25,835 nt of DNA, taken from positions 1-25,835 of the IMG/VR virus record IMGVR_UViG_3300005838_000060, one strand, 5' to 3'. A program made the translations under genes and the position numbers. Positions within the stretch are counted from its first letter, which is position 1, and the number at the start of each line of letters is the position of its first letter. This DNA is from a virus. Shown piece by piece: positions 3-21,313 of the stretch. Below the pieces are notes generated by a model. It saw only the letters and a list, made by a program, of their open reading frames with translations. It had not been told where the DNA came from and made no database searches.

Positions 3-1730
3 GGAATGTTTACATCTGATGCAAAATTATCTAAATCAAATTTTGATAGTCAAATAAGAGTAAAATTTATTAAGAGGGTTTTGAGAAATGGAAAACCACT
101 TAAAGAATCCGTAAATGAAGCTAAAATAGCACATAGTAAAGGTGGATCCGTAGAAGTAGGGAAATGGTATTTACTTAACTATGGAAAATGGAAAGACAAA
201 GTTAAAGTATTGAGTATAGACTCTAAAGGAATGAAAGTTTATAATCCAAATGATAATTGGAGATACACCATACCAATGACTATGATAAAGAAGAAAAAGA
301 TTGGGGGATATATGACTCCACTACAAGAATCAGTAAATGAAGCTAGAAGCACAAATACCGAATGGAATAAGTTTGAAAAGGACTATGGAGATTTTTTCAA
401 AACAGTTGTTAAACTTGGTAAAGCTAATACTAAATTAACTGGTGATAAAACTGATGAAAAAATATTTTTAACAAACTTTACCAGAAATGTTGGTAAATTT
501 TATACTCTAATGAAATCTTGGAAACGTGGTCAAAACGAATCAGTAAATGAATCTATTGAATTACCACAGGGTGTGGAATTTGGTAAAGTATTTACAGGAT
601 ATGGTAAATCTTTTGTTAAAGAAGAATCCATAAATGAAGCTACTCCAAAAGAAAAAGGTAATCTAAAAGTAATGAAACCCAAGTTTAAAAAAACTATGGA
701 TAAGATTTATAAAGATGTAGCATCTATATACCAAAATTTAGGTAGTGTTGAAGCTGATAAATTAAAAAGGGCTTATATTGCAGCAATTAATAGAGGGTTA
801 AATCCACACACAAATATGTTTATGAAACATAATGCACAAAAGATATTAGATACCGCTTTTAAAAATGAATCTGTAAATGAAGAGTGTTGTGGTAATTGTA
901 AAGAAGGAAAAGTTTGTTGTGATGTACATGAAAAAATTTCAAAAGATGAGTGGGCAGAATATCCAAAATACGCAAGAAAATTAAAACCATATATGAAAAA
1001 ACTTCTTAAAGTACCTGTAAGGGTTAGAGTTATAAAACAAGCAAATCATAATCCCTGGATTGAAGTGAGAGTATCCAGATTTGGAAAAGATATTATACCA
1101 AATGATTTCAGAAAAAGAGCCCTAAAGGCAATTGGTGGTGGTAAACCGAGAGATATGGATAACATTACATATGGTAACATAACTGCTGGTTCAGTTTCAA
1201 TGAAACACGACCAATGGGTAAAATTATTAGGGAATAAAGTGAAAAGTGAATCCGTAAATGAAGCTAGAACTATTAATGTAGAACCTAATTGGGAAGGCAT
1301 GTGGAGATTTTTTAAGCGGATGGCAATAACTAACCCAAGAGATTGGAAAAAAATGGAACGTAAGTTGGGGGGTGAGTGGCTTAAAATAGATAAAATGGCA
1401 CAACAAAAAGGATGGAAATCCGAATCCGTAGATGAAAGTGGTATTTTATATCGTGCTGGTGTAAAAAAATATGGTAAAGAAGGAATGCGTAAAATACAAC
1501 AAGCCGCGGGTAAAAGAAAATCTCATGCAGAAATAGGTAAAATTAAAGATAAATATGAAAAAGAATCACTTGAAATAGATGAAGGATTTGGTAGCTCTGA
1601 ATTAATGGGGAAAAAAGATTTAGCAGTATTTGAAAAAACAAGACAGAAAAATGCTGAAGTTTTGGGTTATAAATTAACAGGACAAACAGATATTAAACCT
1701 ATAAAGGAAAAATCTAAAGTTACAAAGTAA
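3..1730 (+). CDS. Lys-rich protein with eight ESVNE-type motifs, probable packaged polyprotein (5' partial)
   Basis: The frame is open to the window edge, so the gene probably starts upstream. The ATG at position 6 is the first in frame but has no ribosome site visible. Numbering from that ATG (574 residues), the motif E-S-(V/I)-(N/D)-E recurs, ending at E38, E112, E182, E211, E292, E419 and E477, with a related LEIDE at E526, mostly followed by A, S or G. These fit the T4 gp21 cleavage rule (L/I/V)-x-E. Cutting there would give nine mostly Lys-rich pieces of 29 to 127 residues. The second piece (39-112) looks like a small SH3/KOW-type barrel. The sixth (293-419) begins with a Cys cluster (CCGNC...CC, residues 294-305). 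The others look helical. No enzyme is recognised. By analogy with T4 internal proteins I infer packaging in the head and delivery with DNA. It lies 5' of a lysozyme and a second probable polyprotein. Confidence 0.8.
   Translation, partial: GMFTSDAKLSKSNFDSQIRVKFIKRVLRNGKPLKESVNEAKIAHSKGGSVEVGKWYLLNYGKWKDKVKVLSIDSKGMKVYNPNDNWRYTIPMTMIKKKKIGGYMTPLQESVNEARSTNTEWNKFEKDYGDFFKTVVKLGKANTKLTGDKTDEKIFLTNFTRNVGKFYTLMKSWKRGQNESVNESIELPQGVEFGKVFTGYGKSFVKEESINEATPKEKGNLKVMKPKFKKTMDKIYKDVASIYQNLGSVEADKLKRAYIAAINRGLNPHTNMFMKHNAQKILDTAFKNESVNEECCGNCKEGKVCCDVHEKISKDEWAEYPKYARKLKPYMKKLLKVPVRVRVIKQANHNPWIEVRVSRFGKDIIPNDFRKRALKAIGGGKPRDMDNITYGNITAGSVSMKHDQWVKLLGNKVKSESVNEARTINVEPNWEGMWRFFKRMAITNPRDWKKMERKLGGEWLKIDKMAQQKGWKSESVDESGILYRAGVKKYGKEGMRKIQQAAGKRKSHAEIGKIKDKYEKESLEIDEGFGSSELMGKKDLAVFEKTRQKNAEVLGYKLTGQTDIKPIKEKSKVTK
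105..1439 (+). repeat. Dispersed 18-nt coding repeat for ESV(N/D)E(A/S)
   Basis: Seven copies begin at 105, 327, 537, 624, 867, 1248 and 1422, all in the reading frame of the first gene. The pattern is gaatcNgtaaatgaagct with third-position changes (tcc, tca, tct for Ser), one Val-to-Ile change (624) and one Asn-to-Asp change (1422). Synonymous drift with a conserved peptide suggests selection on the protein motif rather than recent DNA duplication. Spacing is irregular (87 to 381 nt), which rules out a CRISPR or tandem array. Confidence 0.85.
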
Positions 1731-2362: not shown

Positions 2363-5300
2363 ATGGATAAATTAACTGAATGGTTAACTAAACCTTTTTT
2401 GGATGAGAGTGTAGATTTACCTATAGAGATTGGTGATACAGTCAAGATGGGAAAATTCAAAAACAAAAAGGTAGTCGTTAAGAAAATAGATTGGAATGAA
2501 AAAGGTGATTTACTAATAAACGGTAGACCAGCTTTAAAGTTCAGATTAATGCCCAAAACTAATATTTTTGATAAAGAAGAAGTTACTGAAGAGTGGCCTA
2601 AAAATTGGATACCTACAGGGTTGGGTATGAGAAAGCGACAGAAGCGGGTTTATGGTAGATTAAATCGTTCTATTAGAGAAGGAGTAAATGACCCAGGTAT
2701 ATTTAAAGCAGTTTTTCTTGCAGGTGGTCCTGGAAGTGGAAAGTCATATGTTGCTGGTGGATTGTTTGGAATACCAGATAAAGTAAATGTTTCTGCTTAT
2801 GGATTAAAACTTGTTAATCAAGATACAGAATTAGAAAATTTTCTGAAAAAATACTTTGGTACAACGGATTTAGATAATATGCCAGATGATTTATTTAGAC
2901 AGATTACAGATCCAGGTTATAGTGCACATATGGGTGTTAGAAAACATGCTAAAGCCTTGAGTAAACAAAGATTAAAGTTATATTCACAAGGTAGACTTGG
3001 TGTTATTATTGATGGAACTGGACATAAATTTAATGAAGTAAAAATAGAACGACAAAAATTAATTGATTTAGGTTATGATACCTATATGGTATTTGTAAAT
3101 ACTTCATTAGAAGTTGCACAAATGAGAAACAAATTAAGAGATAGAGTTTTACCATCTGAACTTGTAGAAAAGTATTGGAATAATGTTCAAAAGAATATGG
3201 CATATTTTCAAGGACTATTTGGTGGGTCTAACTTTATGTTGGTAGATAATAATGCTACTTTAAATCCAAAACAAGCACAGAAAAAGTTTAATATGTTGGT
3301 GAAAAAGGGTATTGGTAAATTTATTAAAAAACCAATAAAAAGCAGACAAGCTAAAAAGTGGATTGAAAAACAAAAAATTGTCAAAGAGTTTATTGGAATA
3401 ACTGCTGGAGATGGAACTATAATGGGGGCACCTGATCCAAAAACAGTTAAGAAACAAGTAGATAAACAAAATAAAGATTTAAAATATACAGATACATTTA
3501 GTTTACAATATCTTAAAGAATTTGTAAATAAACCTAAAATGAAAAAGGCTTTAAAAACATTAATTGATAAAAACGTATTACCAAAAAATTATGCTAAGAA
3601 TATAAGTAAATTACAATCTTTTCTTACTCAAAACCCATTAGTAATGACTCAATTATTAAAATTACTTGGTGAAAATATTAATGAGAGTAAAAAAGAATTT
3701 GTAATTTGGGGTATTGCTCCTGGTAAGAGACACGAAGATATACTCTATACTAAAGCTAAATCACATATTGAAGCAAAAAAAATAGTTCAAATCTTAACTA
3801 AAAAACATGGTGTTAAGAATGCCAGAATACAAGTTTTAGATATGACACAAGATCCAAAAGATATTTGGAAAGCTGATAAATTATTTAAAGAGGAAACTTC
3901 AAAAATTAAAAAAGTAGTAGGAATATATGCGGGTAGATTTCAACCATTTGGACCTCATCATAAAAAAGTATATGAGTGGATGAAGAAACAATTTGATGAT
4001 GCGTATATAACTACATCAGATATTAAAAAACCGCCAAAGCATCCAATGAACTTTAAAGAAAAAGTTCGTCATATGAAAAAAATGGGAATTCCATCTAATA
4101 AAATTGTTAAAGAAAAGATACCATATGTAGCAACTAGTGTATTAAAAAAGTTTGATAAAGATACTACTGCCGTAGTTTATATTTTTGGAAAAAAGGATGC
4201 CGGAAGATTGGCAGGAGGAACAAAGAAAAGTGGTGGAAAAACTTATTATCAAGATTATAAAAAGAATAAGAATAATTTAGAGGGACATTACAAACATGGA
4301 TATATTTTAACCGCCCCACATTTTTCTATACAGGCTGGTGGAATGGAAGTAAGTGGAACTGCTATGAGACAATTACTTGGTTCACCAAAATATGCAGATG
4401 ATAGGGAACGGAGATTTAAAAAATTCTTTGGTTATTTTGATCAAGGTGTTTATAATATGATGACTAATAAATTTAAAAAATTATTTGGTGAAGATATTAC
4501 AATAACAAAAGAACTTATAAATGATTTTTTAGTAGAGGTTGATGTATCAAAATATTTGAATGAAGCTACTTTTCAGGCTAATGCTCCCATAGATGATGGA
4601 CCAGCTCATTATTATAAAGGTTTTAGAGATTATAAAAAAGGATCTACAGCTTGGTTAGATTCTATCTTTAAAGAAACTGGATGGGTAGTTTTAAATCATA
4701 TGCTTACTGATAAAGCACACGATCCTGCATTTGATTATACATTAAATTATAGATTTATGCCAACACCATCTTATGGGACGGTAGGAATAAAAGGTAAAAA
4801 GAGTGAACGTTCCTTACATAACAAGTATAAAGAAAGAATAAATTTCATATTGTCTGGTTTAGGATTTGAGGTTATTAAGTGGTTAGGTTTAGAAGATGGT
4901 GAAGTAAGAGTACAAGAACCAGTATTACCAGGTGCAGATGCTGAAACACCAAATACAGATTTAAAAGAATTAAAGTTGTTTTCAAAAGAGTGGTGGAATA
5001 AAGAATTGCTAATAGAAGCGGGACAAATCGATATATGGAATCCAGAATATTGGACGGATAAGTCCGTGAAAGGTCAACAAAAATATATAGCTAAACATGA
5101 TACTTCGAAAGCAGTGGAAAAAGAAAATCCATCAGGTAAAAAAGAACGAGGTAATGTAGTAAAAACAAAACCATATTCAAAAGAACAAGCTGAAGAAGAA
5201 GTTGGTGAGTATTTTGAGAATGATGACGCATTTGAAGCAATGCCTAACTTGGCAAAAGATGAAGATGATTTAATTCAAAAAATTCAAGATGCTCCAGAAG

Positions 5301-7687
5301 AAGTTCTTTCTGATGATGATTTGAGAAATATGATTAATAGTGATGCGGGTGATGTTTTAAAAGCAGATAACCCAATGAAACACGCTCATAAAAAGGCAAT
5401 AGAATATGATAAAAGTTGGGATTACATAACAAAAAGTATTAAAAGTGGAAAACCACAAGAAGCTCCAATAGCAGTTAGAGATAAAAATGGTAAGATGTGG
5501 TTATTAGCGGGTAATACAAGACTAATGGCACAGACAGGACATGGAAATAAAATTCCAGTTAAAATTATTGATTTTGATGGAGATATTAAAGTTCCACAAC
5601 AAGAATCAATAAATGAAAATCTAAAATTGATTTTAGAAATAGATGAAAGGATGACATTAGAAGAGGGAGTTAAGTTTAATAACTTTCTTAAAGATTGGGC
5701 TAAAAGAGGAAAACAACCATTAGATAAAGTTAGAAAATCAATGATGAATAAGAATACTTTTTCGATTGCTAAATTAAATAAATTTAGTGTAGATAAAGTA
5801 TTTGAGAGTGCTAAGAAAGGATTTAAGGCATATCAAAAAATTATGAATTATGTTCCTAATAAGATAGCACATAAATTATCACAAACTAAGTTTGGGCAAA
5901 AGAAAGAAAAGGCTTTAGTTAAATTAGATGATTATTTAAAAGAACATCCAAAACTAAAAAGAGTAATGGGTATAGGCGCAGCCGCAGCGGTAACTTATGC
6001 ATGGACAAAGATGACTTTCATCGGAGACCCAGAATATGATTTAGATTTATCAGCAGCGGCATCCGCAGCGGCACTTGGTGATGTTTCATTTGCAAATTTA
6101 TTTAGTGGTGAAATGGGAACTAAGTTCTTAGTATTAACTGCAGTGGGAGCAACAACAGGTTTGACTGCACCGTATGTAAAGGCTTTTGGTAGAGTTGGAA
6201 CAATGGCTGCTGGTCTTTCATTTGGTGCTTATAGAGCATATAAAGCTCGAAAACAAAAGAAATCAGATGATGAAAAGAAAACGAAAACATCTGCACCAGA
6301 TACCGTAAAGAATCCTAATCCAAAAGGTAGAAAGAAAACAGTTGGTAGAAAAAGTGCGATTCAATGGGTGGCTAAAAATAAGGGCGATAAGGCGGCTAAA
6401 AAGTATGTAAAAAGTTTGTCTGAAAAATTATCAATAGTTGAGGATTTAGATTTAATAATTGAAGGTGGAGCATATGGACATATGAATCATCCATTTGATG
6501 ATAAAGATTTGACATTTTCAGATTTAAAACAGATAATTATTAATGGATTGGGTGGAAATCTTGATAGAGAAGATGGTGTTACAGAAAAACTTGATGGTCA
6601 AAATTTAATGATTAGTTGGAAAGATGGTAAATTAGTTACAGCTAGAAATAAAGGACAATTAAAGAATTTTGGTGAAAAGGCTATGACTACTAAAGGAGTA
6701 GCATCTAAGTTTGCAGGTAGAGGTGATATTAAAGATGCCTTTGTTTTTGCAATGAAAGATTTAAGTAAATCTATAGGAGCGTTATCGGACTCTCAAAAAG
6801 AAAAGGTTTTTGGTAATGGCAAAAGGTGGATGAATTTAGAGGTTATGTGGCCTAAGTCATCAAATGTTATAGATTATGATAAAGCTCAAATAGTATTCCA
6901 CGGTACTTTAGAATATGATGATAGTGGAAATTCCATAGGACAGCCTAAAGGATCTGCAAGAATGTTGGCAGGAATGATTAAACAAGTTAATCAGCATATA
7001 CAAAAACATTATAAAATTGGTAAACCACAATTTTTAAGTGTTCCTAAATCACAAAACTTTGATGCTAAGAAGAAAACTTTTTTAAGTAGGTTGAGTAAAT
7101 TACAAAAAGAATATGCATTAAAAGATAAAGATACTTTAGCACTTTATCATCAAAAGTATTGGGAAGAATTTATTTTTAATGCAGAAAAACAATTTGGAGT
7201 AAAAATGCCAAATAAATCATATAAATCTTTAGTAAAACGTTGGGCATTTTTTGATAAGTCATATAAAATACCACAAATTAGAAAAGATTTTAAGAAATTT
7301 CCAGAATTTTTGGATTGGATATTAACTACAGATAAGGTAGATCATCAAAAAATGGTAAAACAAAATATGAGACCTTTTGAAGTTTTATTTTTTGCAGTAG
7401 GAACTGAAATTTTAAAAAATATTGGTGGATACTTAGCCGCATCTCCAGATGCTGCAGTACAAAAAATAAGAAAAAATGTAATTGGAGCAATATCTAAAAT
7501 AAAAACAGCCAAAGATGTTAAGAAATTGGAAACATTAAAACAACAAATAAGTAAATTAAATTCCATTGGTGGATTAGATTCAATAGTTCCATCAGAAGGA
7601 ATTGTATTTAAGTATAAAGGTAAAGTTTACAAATTTACGGGAGCATTTGCACCTGTAAATCAAATTTTAGGGTTATTAACTTTTTAG
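2363..7687 (+). CDS. 1774-residue multidomain protein (kinase, nucleotidyltransferase, ParB-like, ligase-like), probable packaged polyprotein
   Basis: Start ATG has AGGA 7 nt upstream. Domains in order: a small SH3/KOW-like module (about 22-64); a P-loop kinase of the zeta-toxin/polynucleotide-kinase type (GGPGSGKS at 121-128, IDGTGH at 216-221); a nucleotidyltransferase of the NadM/cytidylyltransferase fold (GRFQPFGPHH at 524-533, SGTAMR at 664-669); an unknown domain (about 742-855); a ParB-like domain (LLAGNTRL, 1047-1054); a hydrophobic Ala/Gly-rich region (about 1200-1290); and a C-terminal domain with ligase-like motifs (EKLDG at 1408-1412, EGIVFK at 1745-1750, KVYK at 1754-1757). Sites fitting (L/I)-x-E lie between these units: LDE15|S, IRE106|G, INE441|S, LNE734|A, LIE885|A, INE1085|N, LEE1101|G and IIE1367|G. 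I infer cutting by the phage prohead protease and packaging of the products. A single giant enzyme is the alternative. Confidence 0.85.
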   Translation: MDKLTEWLTKPFLDESVDLPIEIGDTVKMGKFKNKKVVVKKIDWNEKGDLLINGRPALKFRLMPKTNIFDKEEVTEEWPKNWIPTGLGMRKRQKRVYGRLNRSIREGVNDPGIFKAVFLAGGPGSGKSYVAGGLFGIPDKVNVSAYGLKLVNQDTELENFLKKYFGTTDLDNMPDDLFRQITDPGYSAHMGVRKHAKALSKQRLKLYSQGRLGVIIDGTGHKFNEVKIERQKLIDLGYDTYMVFVNTSLEVAQMRNKLRDRVLPSELVEKYWNNVQKNMAYFQGLFGGSNFMLVDNNATLNPKQAQKKFNMLVKKGIGKFIKKPIKSRQAKKWIEKQKIVKEFIGITAGDGTIMGAPDPKTVKKQVDKQNKDLKYTDTFSLQYLKEFVNKPKMKKALKTLIDKNVLPKNYAKNISKLQSFLTQNPLVMTQLLKLLGENINESKKEFVIWGIAPGKRHEDILYTKAKSHIEAKKIVQILTKKHGVKNARIQVLDMTQDPKDIWKADKLFKEETSKIKKVVGIYAGRFQPFGPHHKKVYEWMKKQFDDAYITTSDIKKPPKHPMNFKEKVRHMKKMGIPSNKIVKEKIPYVATSVLKKFDKDTTAVVYIFGKKDAGRLAGGTKKSGGKTYYQDYKKNKNNLEGHYKHGYILTAPHFSIQAGGMEVSGTAMRQLLGSPKYADDRERRFKKFFGYFDQGVYNMMTNKFKKLFGEDITITKELINDFLVEVDVSKYLNEATFQANAPIDDGPAHYYKGFRDYKKGSTAWLDSIFKETGWVVLNHMLTDKAHDPAFDYTLNYRFMPTPSYGTVGIKGKKSERSLHNKYKERINFILSGLGFEVIKWLGLEDGEVRVQEPVLPGADAETPNTDLKELKLFSKEWWNKELLIEAGQIDIWNPEYWTDKSVKGQQKYIAKHDTSKAVEKENPSGKKERGNVVKTKPYSKEQAEEEVGEYFENDDAFEAMPNLAKDEDDLIQKIQDAPEEVLSDDDLRNMINSDAGDVLKADNPMKHAHKKAIEYDKSWDYITKSIKSGKPQEAPIAVRDKNGKMWLLAGNTRLMAQTGHGNKIPVKIIDFDGDIKVPQQESINENLKLILEIDERMTLEEGVKFNNFLKDWAKRGKQPLDKVRKSMMNKNTFSIAKLNKFSVDKVFESAKKGFKAYQKIMNYVPNKIAHKLSQTKFGQKKEKALVKLDDYLKEHPKLKRVMGIGAAAAVTYAWTKMTFIGDPEYDLDLSAAASAAALGDVSFANLFSGEMGTKFLVLTAVGATTGLTAPYVKAFGRVGTMAAGLSFGAYRAYKARKQKKSDDEKKTKTSAPDTVKNPNPKGRKKTVGRKSAIQWVAKNKGDKAAKKYVKSLSEKLSIVEDLDLIIEGGAYGHMNHPFDDKDLTFSDLKQIIINGLGGNLDREDGVTEKLDGQNLMISWKDGKLVTARNKGQLKNFGEKAMTTKGVASKFAGRGDIKDAFVFAMKDLSKSIGALSDSQKEKVFGNGKRWMNLEVMWPKSSNVIDYDKAQIVFHGTLEYDDSGNSIGQPKGSARMLAGMIKQVNQHIQKHYKIGKPQFLSVPKSQNFDAKKKTFLSRLSKLQKEYALKDKDTLALYHQKYWEEFIFNAEKQFGVKMPNKSYKSLVKRWAFFDKSYKIPQIRKDFKKFPEFLDWILTTDKVDHQKMVKQNMRPFEVLFFAVGTEILKNIGGYLAASPDAAVQKIRKNVIGAISKIKTAKDVKKLETLKQQISKLNSIGGLDSIVPSEGIVFKYKGKVYKFTGAFAPVNQILGLLTF

Positions 7688-13048: not shown

Positions 13049-13933
13049 ATGTCTAAACGATTAAGACACACTAAGATTAAAAATACTGGTGTGCTATTTG
13101 AAGTATTGACCCGACAGGTGACTGCGGATATAATGGAAAATGTAGAGTCAAAGGCAGTAGCTTTGATTAAAAAGCATTTTCATAAAAATTCTGCTTTAGG
13201 AAAAGAGTTAGAATTATATAATATACTTACTACAGAAACATATAAGCGTCGTGATAAGGCTGATAGATTGGTGGACGCAGTAATTAAAAGTAGACAAAGA
13301 CTTTCAAATAAAACACTTAGATCAGAAAAGTTTAATCTTATTAAAGATATTAAAGAAACTTATGATGTAGGTGCTTTATTTTCTACTAGAATGCCAAATT
13401 ATAGACGATTAGCATCTATTTACAAATTATTTTTATATGAAACTACTGGGGAAGATATAAATCCGAAAGAAATTGTAGATTCTAGAGATTATATAGTTGA
13501 ATCGCTAATTACAGAAACTTCTAAACAGAAACCAAAAAGTGAATTAGCTCAAGAATATATTGATGAGTCTAAAGATGTTAAATTATTAGCCTATACTTTA
13601 ATGGTAGAAAAATTTAATAAAAAATATAGTACATTAAGTCATGCTCAAAAAGAAGTTTTGAGAAAATATATTAATAACGTATCAAATACAAACTCCTTAT
13701 CAGAATTTATTGAAGGTGAGGTGATTAATATTAAGGATGCTTTGAAAAATTTGGTACCTAGTGTAACTGATGATATTACTAGTATAAAATTAAAAGAAGT
13801 AATTGCACAGGCTGATGCACTTTCGGAGAATAATAAAGGGACTGAAAATAAAGTAATTACTCTAATGCGATATTATGAACTTGTTAAGGAATTAGAAGAT
13901 GTCTCAAGAAAATCTAAAAAACTTCATTCGTAG
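13049..13933 (+). CDS. Conserved helical protein downstream of portal, unknown
   Basis: The product has 294 residues, almost entirely helical and charged, with GGAG before the ATG. The N-terminus is basic (MSKRLRHTKIKNTGVLFEVL). I believe proteins starting this way are found next to the portal in marine T4-like phages, but I cannot name a function. It occupies the interval where T4 carries the small core genes 67 and 68, and it overlaps the next gene by 35 nt, implying coupled translation. A role in prohead assembly is inferred from position only. Confidence 0.8.
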   Translation: MSKRLRHTKIKNTGVLFEVLTRQVTADIMENVESKAVALIKKHFHKNSALGKELELYNILTTETYKRRDKADRLVDAVIKSRQRLSNKTLRSEKFNLIKDIKETYDVGALFSTRMPNYRRLASIYKLFLYETTGEDINPKEIVDSRDYIVESLITETSKQKPKSELAQEYIDESKDVKLLAYTLMVEKFNKKYSTLSHAQKEVLRKYINNVSNTNSLSEFIEGEVINIKDALKNLVPSVTDDITSIKLKEVIAQADALSENNKGTENKVITLMRYYELVKELEDVSRKSKKLHS

Positions 13934-14579: not shown

Positions 14580-15203
14580 ATGAATCGAGAATTATTAGTA
14601 GATTATTTACCTTTTGAAATAACAAGAGAACAAATAAATGAATCTATGAAAGAAAATAACGGTAGATTAGTTGTTCGCGGAGTATTACAGAGGGCAGAAG
14701 CTAAAAATCAAAATGGTAGAGTATATCCAAAAGAAGTATTGATGAGAGAAGCTAAAAAATATACGGAATCTTTTATTAAAGAACAACGAGCTTTAGGTGA
14801 ATTAGATCATCCAGAAAGTTCGGTAGTAAACTTACAAAATGTTTCTCATAATATTAAAGAAATGCATTGGAATAATCATGATTTGGTTGGTACAGTAGAG
14901 GTATTAGGAACTCCGGCAGGTAATATTTTAACAGAATTATTTAAAGCAGGTATTAAGTTGGGTATTTCATCTAGAGGAATGGGTTCAGTAGAAACTGTAT
15001 CAGAATCAGAAGATGGTGATACACAAGAAGTACAACCAGATTTTGAATTGATAGCATTTGACTTCGTTTCCAATCCATCTACGCAGGGAGCTTTTATGTA
15101 TCCAATGCAAGAATCAGTAGATCGTAAGAATCCTACTGGTAGAACTTGTGGTGATTATTGTAAAGTAGAATCTATTATTAATGATATTTTGCGAGGTGCA
15201 TAA
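14580..15203 (+). CDS. 21: Prohead core protease (T4 gp21-like)
   Basis: This is the serine protease (herpesvirus-assemblin fold, peptidase family S77 type) that matures the prohead by cutting scaffold, core and capsid proteins after (L/I)-x-E. It has 207 residues, close to T4 gp21. Visible motifs: the N-terminal strand region RLVVRGVLQRAEAKNQNGRVYP; the catalytic His in GELDHPES (H77); the catalytic Ser in LGISSRGMGSV (S130 or S131); and a following FELIAFDFVSNPS. An INE|S site at residues 19-21 could serve self-processing. It lies among core genes and upstream of gp22 and gp23, as in T4. It is the enzyme I propose also cuts the two polyprotein-like products at the left end. Confidence 0.94.
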   Translation: MNRELLVDYLPFEITREQINESMKENNGRLVVRGVLQRAEAKNQNGRVYPKEVLMREAKKYTESFIKEQRALGELDHPESSVVNLQNVSHNIKEMHWNNHDLVGTVEVLGTPAGNILTELFKAGIKLGISSRGMGSVETVSESEDGDTQEVQPDFELIAFDFVSNPSTQGAFMYPMQESVDRKNPTGRTCGDYCKVESIINDILRGA

Positions 15204-15762: not shown

Positions 15763-16689
15763 ATGGCTAAAAAGAAAACAACTTTAAAACAAATAGCAGA
15801 ACATATTATAGCTGGAGGATTTGTATCACAGCCAGCAATGATGGATATGGATATGTTTAGAACTAAAATTAAACCCAACAGTGAAGTTAAGACACCTGAT
15901 ATTAAATTAAAAAGTCTTGTTGAAGATGAAACTCACGAACCAGTAAATTCAGGTAAATTTAATCACGCATTGAAAGCATTTCCGAGATTGGGTGAAGCAA
16001 TTTATGGTAAACATGATCTGAAAAGTGTTGCTGAAACTCTTTCTTATTTAGCAAAAACATCTAGACAACATGCTTTAAGTGAAACCGAAGAATGGTTTGA
16101 TAAAATTACTGTTAATCGTAATATGAAAGAATTAGGTGCTCTTTCAGGACAATTTAGTAAAATTTCTTCTGAAGCAAAATCACTACAAGAGAGAATGTCA
16201 GCTTTATATGAAGATATGGGGCATATTATTAATAGATATTATGATTTAGATGAAGCAGATGAGGAAGAATTGGATCCAGTAGGACAGGAAGATGATGACA
16301 TTGATAATGATGGTGATTCAGATGATAGCGATGAATATTTGAGAAATCGTAGAAAAGCTATTGCTAAATCTGTAAAAAAAGAATCTACAGATCCTTGGAA
16401 AGATAGAAAATGGGGTGATCCTTTACCTACTTTAGAAGATTATGTAACATCTACGTTGAAAGAAGAGGATAAAGAGGTAGATGAAGCAGCTAATGACCCA
16501 AAACTTAAAAGTATGAGATCAAAGTTAAGTAAATTAAGACTTAGAATTGCACAAATGGAGAATGAGCCTGGTGGATCTGCAAGAGCTGAAAATCTTAGAA
16601 AACAAAGAGATTCTTTAAGAGATCAAATTGCTAAACTTTCAGGATCAGCTCCAAAACAAGGTAAATGGGCTAAAAAGTTAGGTAAATAG
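15763..16689 (+). CDS. Acidic core-like protein with Asp-rich motif and WGDPLPTLEDY module
   Basis: The product has 308 residues with GGAG before the ATG. The order is: a Lys-rich N-terminus; a helical middle containing KFNHALKAFPRLGEAIYG and LQERMSALYEDMGHIINRYYDLDE; an Asp-rich stretch DDDIDNDGDSDDSDEYL (about 178-194) resembling calcium-binding DxDxDG loops; the peptide KWGDPLPTLEDY (about 216-227); and a C-terminal coiled coil (KLSKLRLRIAQMENE). VDE|A after about residue 242 and LKE|E are possible prohead-protease sites. The WGDPLPTLEDY module recurs at the N-terminus of the next gene. Internal core or assembly role is inferred from position and composition. Confidence 0.75.
   Translation: MAKKKTTLKQIAEHIIAGGFVSQPAMMDMDMFRTKIKPNSEVKTPDIKLKSLVEDETHEPVNSGKFNHALKAFPRLGEAIYGKHDLKSVAETLSYLAKTSRQHALSETEEWFDKITVNRNMKELGALSGQFSKISSEAKSLQERMSALYEDMGHIINRYYDLDEADEEELDPVGQEDDDIDNDGDSDDSDEYLRNRRKAIAKSVKKESTDPWKDRKWGDPLPTLEDYVTSTLKEEDKEVDEAANDPKLKSMRSKLSKLRLRIAQMENEPGGSARAENLRKQRDSLRDQIAKLSGSAPKQGKWAKKLGK
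16411..16443 (+). repeat. 33-nt direct repeat, copy 1
   Basis: This stretch is identical over 33 nt to 16745-16777. It encodes WGDPLPTLEDY near the C-terminal third of the upstream gene. The identity includes third codon positions, suggesting recent duplication or gene conversion. Confidence 0.95.
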
Positions 16690-16693
16690 ATAA

Positions 16694-17392
16694 GTGATTA
16701 AATTAAAAGATATAATAAAAGAATCAAAATGGGCAGACCGTAACTGGGGTGATCCTTTACCTACTTTAGAAGATTATATGACTGAAGCCGAATCAATGAA
16801 ACTACAACCTAAAGGTGGTGGTAAAACAGTTACATTTAAAGATAAAGACAACTATGAAAAAGCTAAAAAATCTGGTGATTATGAAGACCCCGAAGGGTCA
16901 GGAGATGGCGGTGAAAAAGAAGAACCATCTGGTAAATTAGGTGCTGGAGATTTTGAGAGAGATACTGATACTACTCGTGGAGACCCTGATGATTCTTGGG
17001 ATGATGACGAAGGTAAACCAAAACCAAGTGGTGGAGATTTTACAAAAAGTGCTGATTATGATATGTGGTCAGATGATGATCCTGACGCAAAACAAAAAGG
17101 TATGGATAGAGCATCAGGTTTAGCTAAAAAAGGTATGGAAAAACGACCAGGTGGAGAACAAGCAGAAAAAGATTATCAGAAAGCTGACCAAATGATAAAG
17201 AAATACGCTGGTAGAGATATAGAAAAAGCAGAATTTTGGGCAAAGAAAAAGAAGCAGGCATCAGATGCAATGATGGGTGAAATTACAATCAATAGTAAAC
17301 AATATAAAATAATTTCTGAATCTATTAATTCTACAGTATTTGATCCCAAAGGTGAAATTAAAAGTTTCTGGAATAGAATTAAAGATAAATAA
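16694..17392 (+). CDS. Acidic, low-complexity core-like protein with WGDPLPTLEDY module
   Basis: The product has 232 residues and uses a GTG start 4 nt after the previous stop, with AGGT about 10 nt upstream. The GTG keeps the segment IKLKDIIKESKWADRNWGDP, which parallels the upstream gene (KKESTDPWKDRKWGDP). The next ATG at 16778 would lose the shared module, so GTG is preferred. The middle (about 35-150) is rich in Asp, Gly, Glu, Lys and Pro and is probably disordered. The C-terminus is ordered and basic, ending KSFWNRIKDK. SESIN near residue 210 looks like an ESVNE motif without the final Glu. It is probably an interaction partner or paralogue-by-module of the preceding protein, in the prohead core. 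Confidence 0.72.
   Translation: MIKLKDIIKESKWADRNWGDPLPTLEDYMTEAESMKLQPKGGGKTVTFKDKDNYEKAKKSGDYEDPEGSGDGGEKEEPSGKLGAGDFERDTDTTRGDPDDSWDDDEGKPKPSGGDFTKSADYDMWSDDDPDAKQKGMDRASGLAKKGMEKRPGGEQAEKDYQKADQMIKKYAGRDIEKAEFWAKKKKQASDAMMGEITINSKQYKIISESINSTVFDPKGEIKSFWNRIKDK
16745..16777 (+). repeat. 33-nt direct repeat, copy 2
   Basis: This stretch is identical to 16411-16443 and lies 334 nt downstream. It encodes WGDPLPTLEDY at residues 18-28 of the GTG-started protein. Confidence 0.95.
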
Positions 17393-18998: not shown

Positions 18999-20633
18999 AT
19001 GTCAAGTAAGGCAATAGCAGAAATTATGGATGGCTATAACCCGCATATTGAGCGTCGGAATGAAACGAAGAAGCTCATAGAAAAGTGGGAAGCTACCGGT
19101 CTGTTAGAAGGTCTCGGAGACGAAAATAAAGTTCATACAATGGCACAGTTGCTTGAAAATCAAGCACGTCAGCTTATTGATGAATCTTCAAGAGTTGGTG
19201 GACCCGGTACAGAAGAATGGAGTGGAGTTGCACTTCCTCTAGTTAGACGTATCTTTGGTGAATTGGCAGCACAGGAATTCGTTTCTGTTCAGCCTATGAA
19301 CCTTCCATCAGGTCTAATTTTCTATCTAGACTTTAAATACGGTACAGCCAATCAAGGCTTTAGCGTTGGAGAAGATGTTTATGGTAACACATCAGCATCT
19401 GGTGATGCAAGTGGTGGTCTTTATGGTGCAGGTAAGTTCGCTTACTCAACCAAGCAGCAGGAAACTGCCGCACAGTCCATTCACGCATCAAGTGTAGCAA
19501 GCGGAACCTATACAACTGGTTCTGTTGCAGCAAGAGATATTGACTATGAACCCGGCTTAACTATTGGAACAGCAGGCGCAGATAACTCACTTAATAAAGT
19601 GACAGTTTCTACCGCAGGTATGACTCGTCCCGATAAAGAAGCAGTTCGTTCAATGGCGATATCTGGTACGGGATTTGATGAGTATTTCCCTGCATATACA
19701 AAACTGTCTGGTTCAGCTAATACTGAAGTAGTTTTCATTGTTAGAAACTCCGCGACAGGAACATTAGGTGACCTGACTGTTAAGTATAGTGCACAACCTA
19801 CCGATTCAACTCGTGGTGACTTTGAAGTTAGCACAAGTGAAGATTGGGCAGGCGATACGGGCGATGTCGGAATTCCAGAAATTGATATTCAGTTAAGACA
19901 AGTTAGCATCGTTGCTAAAACTCGTAAACTGAAAGCAGTATGGACTCCTGAGCTAGCTCAAGATCTTAACGCTTACCATAGTGTTGATGCAGAAGCAGAG
20001 CTTACAGCAATGTTAAGTGAGTACGTTTCGATGGAAATCGATTTGGAAATCCTAGACATGCTTAGAGCAAACGCAGATGCTAAGACCGAATATTGGTCAG
20101 CAAGAGTTGGATATGAACGTCCAACTGGAGGCGGAGCTTTCGCACAGTCAAGTGGTGAATCTAATGCTTATACAAAGGGTGAATGGTTCCAGACTCTTGG
20201 AAACAAAGTCCAAAGTGTAAGTAACGCAATTCATCAGAAAACTCTACGTGGTGGTGCTAACTGGATGGTGGTTTCACCTGAAACAGCAACAATCATAGAG
20301 AGTATTCCTGGATACGCAGCAGACACAGATGGTAATGCATCAAATAGCTCATTTGCAATGGGTGTACAGAAGGTCGGTATGTTGAATAGTCGATATACAG
20401 TTTATAAGAATCCTTATATGTTAGAAAACGTAGTCCTTATTGGATTCCGTGGATCTAACTTCTTAGAAACTGGTGCGGTTTATGCTCCATACGTTCCTTT
20501 GATCATGACACCTCTTGTTTATGATCCAGCTAACTTTACACCTCGTAAAGGGGTAATGACCCGTTATGCTAAGAAAATGGTGAGACCAGAATTTTATGGT
20601 CAAATCGTTGTAGCAGACGTAAACTATGTATAA
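18999..20633 (+). CDS. 23: Major capsid protein (T4 gp23-like)
   Basis: This HK97-fold hexamer subunit of the head has 544 residues, near T4 gp23. The N-terminal region (1-62) is the probable cleaved propeptide: QLIDE|SSRVGGPG fits the gp21 rule, and T4 gp23 is cut after residue 65. Typical segments follow: VALPLVRRIFGELAAQEFVS, VQPMNLPSGLIFYLDF, TRKLKAVWTPELAQDLNAYH, and the C-terminal YAPYVPLIMTPLVYDPANFT. Compared with flanking genes it uses more C/G-ending codons and more CGT for Arg, as expected of a highly expressed gene. It ends shortly before a strong terminator. No separate vertex protein (gp24) gene is seen. Confidence 0.97.
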   Translation: MSSKAIAEIMDGYNPHIERRNETKKLIEKWEATGLLEGLGDENKVHTMAQLLENQARQLIDESSRVGGPGTEEWSGVALPLVRRIFGELAAQEFVSVQPMNLPSGLIFYLDFKYGTANQGFSVGEDVYGNTSASGDASGGLYGAGKFAYSTKQQETAAQSIHASSVASGTYTTGSVAARDIDYEPGLTIGTAGADNSLNKVTVSTAGMTRPDKEAVRSMAISGTGFDEYFPAYTKLSGSANTEVVFIVRNSATGTLGDLTVKYSAQPTDSTRGDFEVSTSEDWAGDTGDVGIPEIDIQLRQVSIVAKTRKLKAVWTPELAQDLNAYHSVDAEAELTAMLSEYVSMEIDLEILDMLRANADAKTEYWSARVGYERPTGGGAFAQSSGESNAYTKGEWFQTLGNKVQSVSNAIHQKTLRGGANWMVVSPETATIIESIPGYAADTDGNASNSSFAMGVQKVGMLNSRYTVYKNPYMLENVVLIGFRGSNFLETGAVYAPYVPLIMTPLVYDPANFTPRKGVMTRYAKKMVRPEFYGQIVVADVNYV

Positions 20634-20680: not shown

Positions 20681-20707
20681 AGCCCTCATTTATTGGGGGC
20701 TTTTTTT
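20681..20707 (+). terminator. Rho-independent terminator after gp23
   Basis: AGCCCTC (20681-20687) pairs with GGGGGCT (20695-20701), including one T-G pair, around a 7-nt AT loop. The second arm runs directly into seven T residues (20701-20707). It lies 48 nt after the gp23 stop and separates the capsid genes from the homing endonuclease. Confidence 0.92.
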
Positions 20708-20718
20708 ATGTCCGAAAC

Positions 20719-20726
20719 TATTTATT
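20719..20726 (+). promoter_or_regulatory. Weak TATTTATT promoter-like element
   Basis: It matches the 8-nt core of the element at 13013-13022 and lies between the terminator and the endonuclease start, 17 nt upstream of the ATG. In AT-rich DNA this could be chance. Confidence 0.2.
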
Positions 20727-20743
20727 ACTATATGGAGAGTATT

Positions 20744-21313
20744 ATGGAAATAACAATATACAAAATAACAAGTCCAAGTGGTAAAAACTATATAGGTAGG
20801 ACGCATGGATTTAGTCATAGGATGGCGTCGCATAAGAGTTTAGCTTTTAATGAAAAAACAGTTAAATATAATTACCCATTATACAAATCAATTAGAAAAT
20901 ATGGGTGGGAAAAAATGAAAGTTGAAAAACTTGCAATTTGTTCTAAAAATGATATGTGTGAGGTGGAATTGGCGTATATTATAAAATATGAAGGATTTGA
21001 TGGATACAATACTCAAAGAGATACTACACATGGTGGAGATATGTGGAAAGGAAGAAAAGACACTCCAGAATATAAACAGTTTATAGAAAAAATGAAAGAT
21101 ATAAATACTGGCTACAAAAACGGAATGTATGGTAAAAAACACAATGCTGAAACAATAGTAGAATTAAAAAAGAAAGCAAAAGGTCGTTTTTCACTTCCCT
21201 GGTTTCAAGATAAGTATGGGAAAACAGAGGGTCAAGTTAAATATGATGATAGATGCCTGATGTTAAAAAATAGAGTGGTAAAGAAGGATAAGTATGGAAG
21301 GTTTACAAAATGA
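20744..21313 (+). CDS. Free-standing GIY-YIG homing endonuclease
   Basis: The product has 189 residues from the ATG at 20744, which has GGAG 6 nt upstream. In-frame starts at 20732 and 20708 exist but lie in front of that site. The GIY-YIG nuclease domain (about 1-95) begins IYKITSPSGKNYIGRT, with the catalytic Arg in GRT followed by H and R residues and a Glu in CEVELAYIIKYEG. The C-terminal half has a NUMOD-like DNA-binding element (NGMYGKKHNAETIVELKKK). It lies after the capsid gene's terminator, a typical place for a mobile gene to insert without harm. It is likely self-propagating into related genomes lacking it. Its codon use is AT-rich, unlike gp23. Confidence 0.92.
   Translation: MEITIYKITSPSGKNYIGRTHGFSHRMASHKSLAFNEKTVKYNYPLYKSIRKYGWEKMKVEKLAICSKNDMCEVELAYIIKYEGFDGYNTQRDTTHGGDMWKGRKDTPEYKQFIEKMKDINTGYKNGMYGKKHNAETIVELKKKAKGRFSLPWFQDKYGKTEGQVKYDDRCLMLKNRVVKKDKYGRFTK

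Follow-up and report, generated by a model that had tools for sequence, protein, structure and literature searches.

A 1774-residue protein of a T4-like phage as a probable capsid-cargo polyprotein of the head protease

The open reading frame at positions 2363-7687 (plus strand) of the window, the 25,835-nucleotide stretch of viral DNA analyzed here, is quite probably the gene of a marine T4-like phage for a capsid-cargo polyprotein processed by the head protease. In the window and in 79 related IMG/VR loci, we observe sites of the form hydrophobic-x-Glu (hxE) between modules, conservation of these sites, exchange of modules at them, a match to the specificity expected at the phage's own capsid protein, an intact protease gene, and an N-terminal leader. 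The frame is open throughout its 1774 codons. Since three other IMG/VR contigs (L001, L002, and L004) carry the same chain at full length with 100% identity, an assembly fusion is unlikely and was rejected as its origin.

The chain begins with a leader resembling T4 capsid-targeting sequences, MDKLTEWLTKPFLDE|S (residues 1 to 15; 2363-2407; plus strand, like the modules below and the ESVNE, protease, and major capsid genes; the bar marks the predicted cut), which ends at site E15. It is followed by a variable segment (residues 16 to 106; 2408-2680) that is shorter or substituted in L017, L021, and L063 and ends at IRE106|G, where aligned relatives have Glu in 15/17 and Gly in 17/17 cases. Residues 107 to 342 (2681-3388), starting with GVNDPGIFKAVFLAGGPGSGKS, form a P-loop kinase module whose Pfam matches (AAA_33/Zeta_toxin) lie near the cutoff and whose low-confidence model matches polynucleotide kinases in Foldseek. 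A helical module (residues 343 to 441; 3389-3685) contains predicted helices at 379 to 434 (pLDDT, 54 to 81) and ends at INE441|S, within the low-confidence stretch 438 to 444. The small module that comes next (residues 442 to 510; 3686-3892) is swappable: it reads SKKEFVIWG here, is exchanged in L007, L008, L021, and L031, and has AFAVRG or NDKAQL counterparts in relatives. Residues 511 to 734 (3893-4564) make up a nucleotidyltransferase module of the cytidylyltransferase or NadD/NadM type (Pfam CTP_transf_like, 4.8e-05; Foldseek NadD/NadM probability, 0.91 to 1.0, best E 2e-3), which ends at LNE734|A (Glu in 34/36 aligned relatives).

The second half opens with a module containing DDGPAHYYKGF, to which no function was assigned (residues 735 to 885; 4565-5017), ending at LIE885|A (Glu in 21/24). 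A module with a ParB-like GNTRL motif, recognized by inspection only (residues 886 to 1085; 5018-5617), ends at INE1085|N; it is missing en bloc in L011, L012, L021, and L024 and substituted in L010, L017, and L042. In L011, L012, and L021, the missing stretch is residues 886 to 1089, and the deletion junction falls at site 885. A helical module with hydrophobic stretches (residues about 1096 to 1367; 5618-6463) is missing en bloc in L008 (residues 1093 to 1349), L031, and L037 and ends at IIE1367|G, where Gly is found in 47/47 and Glu in 40/47 aligned relatives, 7/47 lacking the Glu. The C-terminal module (residues 1368 to 1774; 6464-7684; GGAYGHMNHPFDD) is ligase-like, with EKLDGQN, SEGIVFKYKG, and YKFTG. 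This assignment rests on covalent nucleotidyltransferase motifs recognized by inspection, because a Foldseek search with the C-terminal half found no significant match, with T4 RNA ligase 2 appearing only at E 2. In the isolate Mel-JY01, which carries a cytidyltransferase/ligase fusion, IIAE|GGLGGHMNHPFDD precedes the ligase-like module (IIAE|GGLGGHMNHPF).

Thus, several unrelated enzymatic domains (kinase, nucleotidyltransferase, and ligase-like) are joined in one polypeptide, to which relatives add CCA-adding, HD, and PAP2 domains. Counting the CCA-adding enzyme of the relatives, the modules appear to resemble enzymes of RNA repair and of NAD or nucleotide metabolism. The set of kinase, ligase-like, NMN-adenylyltransferase-like, and CCA-adding modules therefore suggests, speculatively, a cargo for RNA repair or for restoring NAD soon after infection begins; such enzymes would suit a cargo that is needed before phage gene expression. 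A PDB sequence search returned nothing significant, and PADLOC gave no meaningful defense-related match.

The eight motifs that an earlier note had proposed as protease-type sites (at E15, E106, E441, E734, E885, E1085, E1101, and E1367) are all present at these residues. Their abundance is a less clear matter. The pattern of that note, [LI]xE[ASG], occurs 7 times against 2.5 in shuffled sequences (P = 0.01), but the wider [LIVMF]xE[GASN] gives 10 matches against 6.1 (P = 0.08), with a per-residue density no higher than in the terminase, so that we rejected raw motif counting as stand-alone evidence. The polyprotein claim therefore rests on the position and conservation of the sites. P1' varies at several boundaries, where it may be D, E, R, F, or K, and two weaker boundaries that the earlier note had missed lie near VKE342|F and FKE510|E; at these places, relatives have the cleaner sites VKE|S, VNE|A, and LNE|N.

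The position of the sites was assessed in AlphaFold2 models of the two halves of the protein. These are poor models (19 to 23 sequences; mean pLDDT, 51.9 and 53.8) and usable only for a coarse contrast between linker and core. At this resolution, the eight sites have lower pLDDT than 38 control motifs of the form hx[KDQRT][GASN] (P = 0.002), and those at 15, 106, 441, 734, 885, 1085, and 1367 fall in coil, at helix ends, or in low-confidence stretches. The claim that all eight separate domains thus holds for seven of them. The exception, LEE1101|G, lies in the first helix of the module at about 1096 to 1367. It probably belongs to a fold rather than being cut, because it sits in a helix where the model is more confident (pLDDT, 75) and, together with its domain, is kept in 17/17 relatives. 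Just upstream of MTLEEG, the window protein has IDE1095|R, and L010 and L013 have IIE|G or LIE|G; judged from these sequences, the boundary probably sits at IDE1095|R.

Stronger evidence for the modular polyprotein comes from the relatives, which were needed because the junction test described below is weak for the window protein alone (P = 0.16 for hxE[GASN] and 0.04 for hxE). Across the 79 loci, chain lengths vary widely (e.g., 1210, 1543, 1642, and 2463 residues), and whole modules are gained, lost, or swapped. For instance, L010 contains an inserted CCA-adding enzyme with an HD domain behind YRTIDE| (PolyA_pol, 5.5e-31; HD, 3.9e-08), as does L017, and L013 carries a PAP2 phosphatase module. 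In L017 (2366-9489), the chain is broken between two open reading frames inside the CCA-adding/HD module. L063 has a module of about 300 residues (about 330 to 660) that, by eye, looks like an N-terminal nucleophile hydrolase (CIAVAKKFGDDIVLGKNRDRNYN); it starts after YEEIDE| and stops before LNLNE|N.

We took a junction to be a boundary between collinear blocks, counted it if it lay within 10 residues of hxE[GASN], and used random shifts as the null. Over all relatives, 95 of 365 junctions were counted against 35 expected, a 2.7-fold excess. Neither the junction statistics nor the swap counts below are fully corrected for shared ancestry, which inflates the swap counts, although the upstream modules differ. 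Near junctions, hxK[GASN] and hxD[GASN] are depleted, and E[GASN] and [GASN]E are about 1.8-fold enriched. Among ten representatives sharing less than 80% identity, 22 of 70 junctions lie near hxE[GASN] (6.6 expected; 0 of 2,000 shifts reach this number), and the control hx[KDQRT][GASN] is not enriched. The earlier proposal of a modular polyprotein is supported here, in that junctions coincide with the sites in divergent relatives and control motifs do not. It is further supported by modules that recur in differing contexts. The P-loop module GVxDPGIFKAxFLAGGPGSGK is directly preceded by [LIVF]xE in 39/39 distinct contexts, and P1' is Gly in every one of them; the search pattern in part presupposes this Gly, but neither the Glu nor the hydrophobic residue. 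Similarly, hxE directly precedes the APRxPRKKG module in 11/12 cases, the AFAVRG module in 8/8, and the ligase-like module in 45/54, compared with a background in which hxE occurs at 1.6% of positions. P2 and the residues upstream of P3 are free to vary. With the exception of LEE1101|G, the conserved sites thus lie between and not inside domains.

The same genome carries a homologue of the prohead protease gp21 (Peptidase_S77; 14580-15203; Pfam, 9.4e-27; PHROG head maturation protease, 1.3e-52). The gene is complete, and its ELDHP, SSRGMGS, and FDFV blocks, with the catalytic His, Ser, and Asp, align with T4 gp21; the protein has an N-terminal site of its own, INE21|S. It lies between the portal and capsid genes, as in T4, and in the same operon as the cargo gene, which precedes the terminase, portal, and protease genes both here and in Mel-JY01 and precedes the terminase gene in L264. 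The major capsid protein (18999-20633) has a predicted maturation site, QLIDE62|S, at which 80/80 relatives have I or V at P3 and E at P1, with A, S, or T at P1'. The cargo sites agree with this predicted specificity of the protease on the phage's own capsid protein, [IV]xE|[AST], which in its broader form, hydrophobic-x-E|[AST], also matches T4 sites: LTE65|A of gp23, LRE10|S of gp24, and the leaders of internal proteins (MKTYQEFIAE|A twice and TITE19|A). Since the motif is shared with the capsid site and with sites that are cleaved in T4, it is what the S77 protease should cut, and we consider this enzyme the candidate processor of the 1774-residue chain. Directly after the major capsid gene lies an open reading frame (20693-21313) resembling a GIY-YIG homing endonuclease by eye.

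Two further head-region proteins of the window may be additional core or cargo substrates. Those at 13049-13933 and 16694-17392 are both enriched in hxE[GASN] (5 against 1.7 and 3 against 0.75 expected), and the latter starts with VIKLKDIIKE|S, which together suggested this possibility. Furthermore, an acidic motif reminiscent of a calcium-binding loop, DxDNDGDxDxSDxYLxxRRKAI, recurs in head-region proteins, namely, in the window protein at 15763-16689 (residues about 168 to 200), in L172, and in L266 (4946-6301). The PHROG match of this window protein to a cytidyltransferase is probably due to the motif.

A second string of modules appears to be encoded at the start of the window (6-1730) by the ESVNE protein, of which at least 574 residues are present, the frame being open at the window start. 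Its modules are separated by sites of the ESVNE|A type, and S[VI]NE occurs six times against 0.02 expected. Among 23 nonredundant relatives, the median spacing of the sites is 74.5 residues, and P1' is A, G, or S in 64/109 sites, whereas the search itself required Glu at P1. Of 22 comparable pairs, 15 show an inverted order of modules. Similarity blocks end at these sites (z = 7.1), and no such coincidence is seen for the controls hxK and hxD[GASN]. As far as its sequence goes, the protein is a second and extensively shuffled string. Because the ESVNEA sites share near-identical codons (GTA AAT GAA GCT in most), recombination at repeated site DNA may contribute to this shuffling. A tblastn search of the ESVNE protein against phage records gave no match.

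The hydrophobic-x-E of the leader of the 1774-residue chain, MDKLTEWLTKPFLDE|S, is kept in 13/13 aligned relatives. The chain thus has a leader of 10 to 20 residues ending in hydrophobic-x-E, by a pattern calibrated on the T4 internal proteins. In some relatives the protein is divided between two genes, the second of which starts with a leader of its own, MKTLSEDLIKRFLKE|S in L013 (L018 is divided in the same way) and MQKLVKELIEPFLIKE|S in L056. Standalone kinases likewise carry leaders, such as MIPFILKE|G in gp129 of Pelagibacter phage HTVC008M, MKTFAELQE|G in OM43 phage Melnitz-2, and MIKLMDLLIE|G in contigs, and cyanophage cytidyltransferases start with MKSFSQFLTE|T (P-SSM2) or MKKFSAFLTE|A (Syn33). 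In a census over the loci, hxE was about twofold commoner at residues 5 to 25 than further in, a modest signal from redundant genes.

Leaders of this type also track with detection in virions. NMNAT/cytidylyltransferases have been found in virions of the cyanophages S-CREM2 and S-SCSM1 (PMC10665884, PMC9602691), and the virion proteome of S-CREM2 was determined by mass spectrometry (Table 3 of PMC10665884). Among 128 genes of S-CREM2 that we scanned, virion proteins made up 6/7 genes with a T4-like leader against 15/121 others; the P value of 6e-5 is indicative only, because the pattern was written after some of these leaders had been seen. The leader-bearing virion proteins include the SAM hydrolase gp6, the Cas9-like gp12, the kinase gp14, and the cytidylyltransferase gp154 (MKNFSSFLTE|A). 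As its authors point out, the enzymes detected in this proteome might be carry-over (PMC10665884). Possibly, the F-x-x-F-L-x-E type of leader found in S-CREM2 (L271, L272, and L273) is a general predictor of injected cyanophage proteins.

Shortly after the leader, otherwise unrelated cyanophage cargo proteins (L266, 3659-4933; L267, 2758-3915; L271, gp12 and gp14) share, by eye, a module of about 35 residues, GDGHGxWxD...TGxxVAxTxxGxLxF. Another leader-like start, MKWNDLNE|A, is found in gp053 of Agrobacterium phage Atu_ph07 (L265, 2254-4590), which later continues with VTE252|G and the P-loop module. The N-terminal region of gp053 is repeated in gp054 (L265, 758-2230) and may be ADP-ribosyltransferase-like (YRGM motif, by eye); if the numbering agrees, gp053 falls in the virion cluster of CDS 31 to 76.

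From these features we infer that the 1774-residue chain is packaged, cut, and ejected. During late gene expression, the T4-type leader would draw the whole chain into the prohead core. The S77 protease, activated at head maturation, would then cut after Glu at hydrophobic-x-E|small sites between the modules, and the kinase, nucleotidyltransferase, ligase-like, and other modules would be freed as separate proteins, packed with the DNA, and ejected into the next host cell. Modules could be added, lost, or swapped because packaging needs one leader and release a short degenerate site. The earlier note had suggested that any domain flanked by sites is packaged and released. The modularity and the release at internal sites fit our observations, but a domain should not be packaged just because sites flank it: we expect the N-terminal leader of the entire chain to govern packaging and the internal sites to govern release.

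An uncleaved multidomain protein of the "polyvalent" kind, carried in the virion or injected and acting as a whole, would also have flexible, recombination-prone linkers with Glu-rich helix ends at its module borders. There is a precedent in the virion RNA polymerase of N4, a multidomain early effector that is packaged unprocessed, without the action of a prohead protease (PMC5512222), and the linkers of our protein are indeed rich in Glu, as reflected in the 1.8-fold enrichment of E[GASN] and [GASN]E near junctions. We nevertheless find this explanation unlikely. The enrichment of hxE[GASN] exceeds that of these Glu controls and is accompanied by depletion of hxK and hxD[GASN], the hydrophobic P3 and the Glu at P1 are fixed before modules regardless of the upstream context, and standalone modules retain the site behind a short leader.

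The Glu motif might instead be the by-product of recombination, a scar left when modules are exchanged at short stretches of conserved DNA (GAATCNGTAAATGAAGCT, for example). The near-identical codons of the ESVNEA sites could seed such exchange. We regard this as highly improbable for the 1774-residue chain, since its sites (FLDES, SIREG, NINES, YLNEA, LLIEA, and LIIEG) use different codons for a common protein motif, and the capsid protein is marked by the same motif. Equally, a protein encoded in the head operon might be a core or scaffold component that is processed only for degradation, as are T4 gp22, gp67, and gp68, which have many such sites. Here, however, the sites are not dense but lie about 70 to 400 residues apart, between folded enzymatic modules. 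Moreover, the modules include a CCA-adding enzyme with an HD domain as well as a PAP2 phosphatase, and cytidyltransferases persist in mature cyanophage virions (PMC10665884), which makes processing for degradation the least likely of these explanations.

The capsid-cargo polyprotein that we favor has partial counterparts in known systems. Closest in kind are the T4 internal proteins IPI to IPIII and Alt, which share with our chain the short [LI]xE|A leader and the S77 protease in the head operon; T4 gp21 removes the leaders from the internal proteins and cuts Alt at both ends (ITE6 and LTE619) (PMC9958956, PMC5694885). Each of these genes yields one mature product by terminal cuts, whereas here many modules stand behind one leader, with internal sites and frequent exchange. 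The closest match in domain mixture is provided by the polyvalent proteins of phages and plasmids, very large proteins in which unrelated enzymatic domains are likewise joined (Iyer et al. 2017, PMC5512222). They have been proposed to enter the host with the DNA, and an analogy with polyproteins was drawn (PMC5512222). Their processing is assigned to embedded zincin-like metallopeptidases, the most common though not universal domain of this class (PMC5512222). In contrast, we found no HExxH in the 1774-residue protein, its nonredundant relatives, or the ESVNE family, and no peptidase Pfam match among the cargo modules of the window protein or relatives; an embedded zincin-like metallopeptidase is thus lacking here, and the candidate is a separate prohead protease. 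The giant-phage ejection proteins that are processed by phiKZ gp175 (family S80) and SPN3US gp245 resemble our chain in their cleavage after Glu in a short motif, as at our predicted sites, and in being cut several times, packed in the head, and ejected, as we propose (PMC10052503, PMC5694885). Their cuts fragment a propeptide and leave one mature product, where we predict several modules.

The cyanophages S-CREM2, S-SCSM1, S-SZBM1, and S-CBWM1 have virion-detected NMNAT/cytidylyltransferases and kinases of the same enzyme superfamily as ours (PMC10665884, PMC9602691), and S-CREM2 gp154 has, like the cargo chain, a T4-type leader, ending in LTE|A. In the passages of these reports that we consulted, the enzymes are mostly encoded by single-module genes, as opposed to a multimodule chain, and leaders and cleavage are absent from the discussion. 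Our search of open-license papers retrieved none that combines a phage prohead protease with a cargo polyprotein.

In conclusion, we lean towards a more general view in which T4-like phages of the sea use the head protease as a polyprotein processor, so that one leader followed by interchangeable, site-bounded modules offers an open-ended way of packaging many different early-acting enzymes. At least two separate genes of one genome, the enzyme string and the ESVNE string of mini-domains, would follow this scheme, with their order and content reshuffled. Polyproteins are characteristic of RNA viruses and of retroviruses. If our reading is true, a capsid protease of a DNA phage that releases a tray of packaged enzymes would represent a new use of a well-studied protease and suggest how a single tag can bring several proteins into a T4-type head. 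It would also account for giant marine phage proteins with puzzling domain mixtures, and it would supply a sequence rule, a leader plus hxE|small boundaries, for predicting the phage proteins that are injected as infection begins. The lists of modules (kinase, ligase-like, CCA-adding, and NMN adenylyltransferase-like) would then hint at what such phages need during their first minutes in the host.
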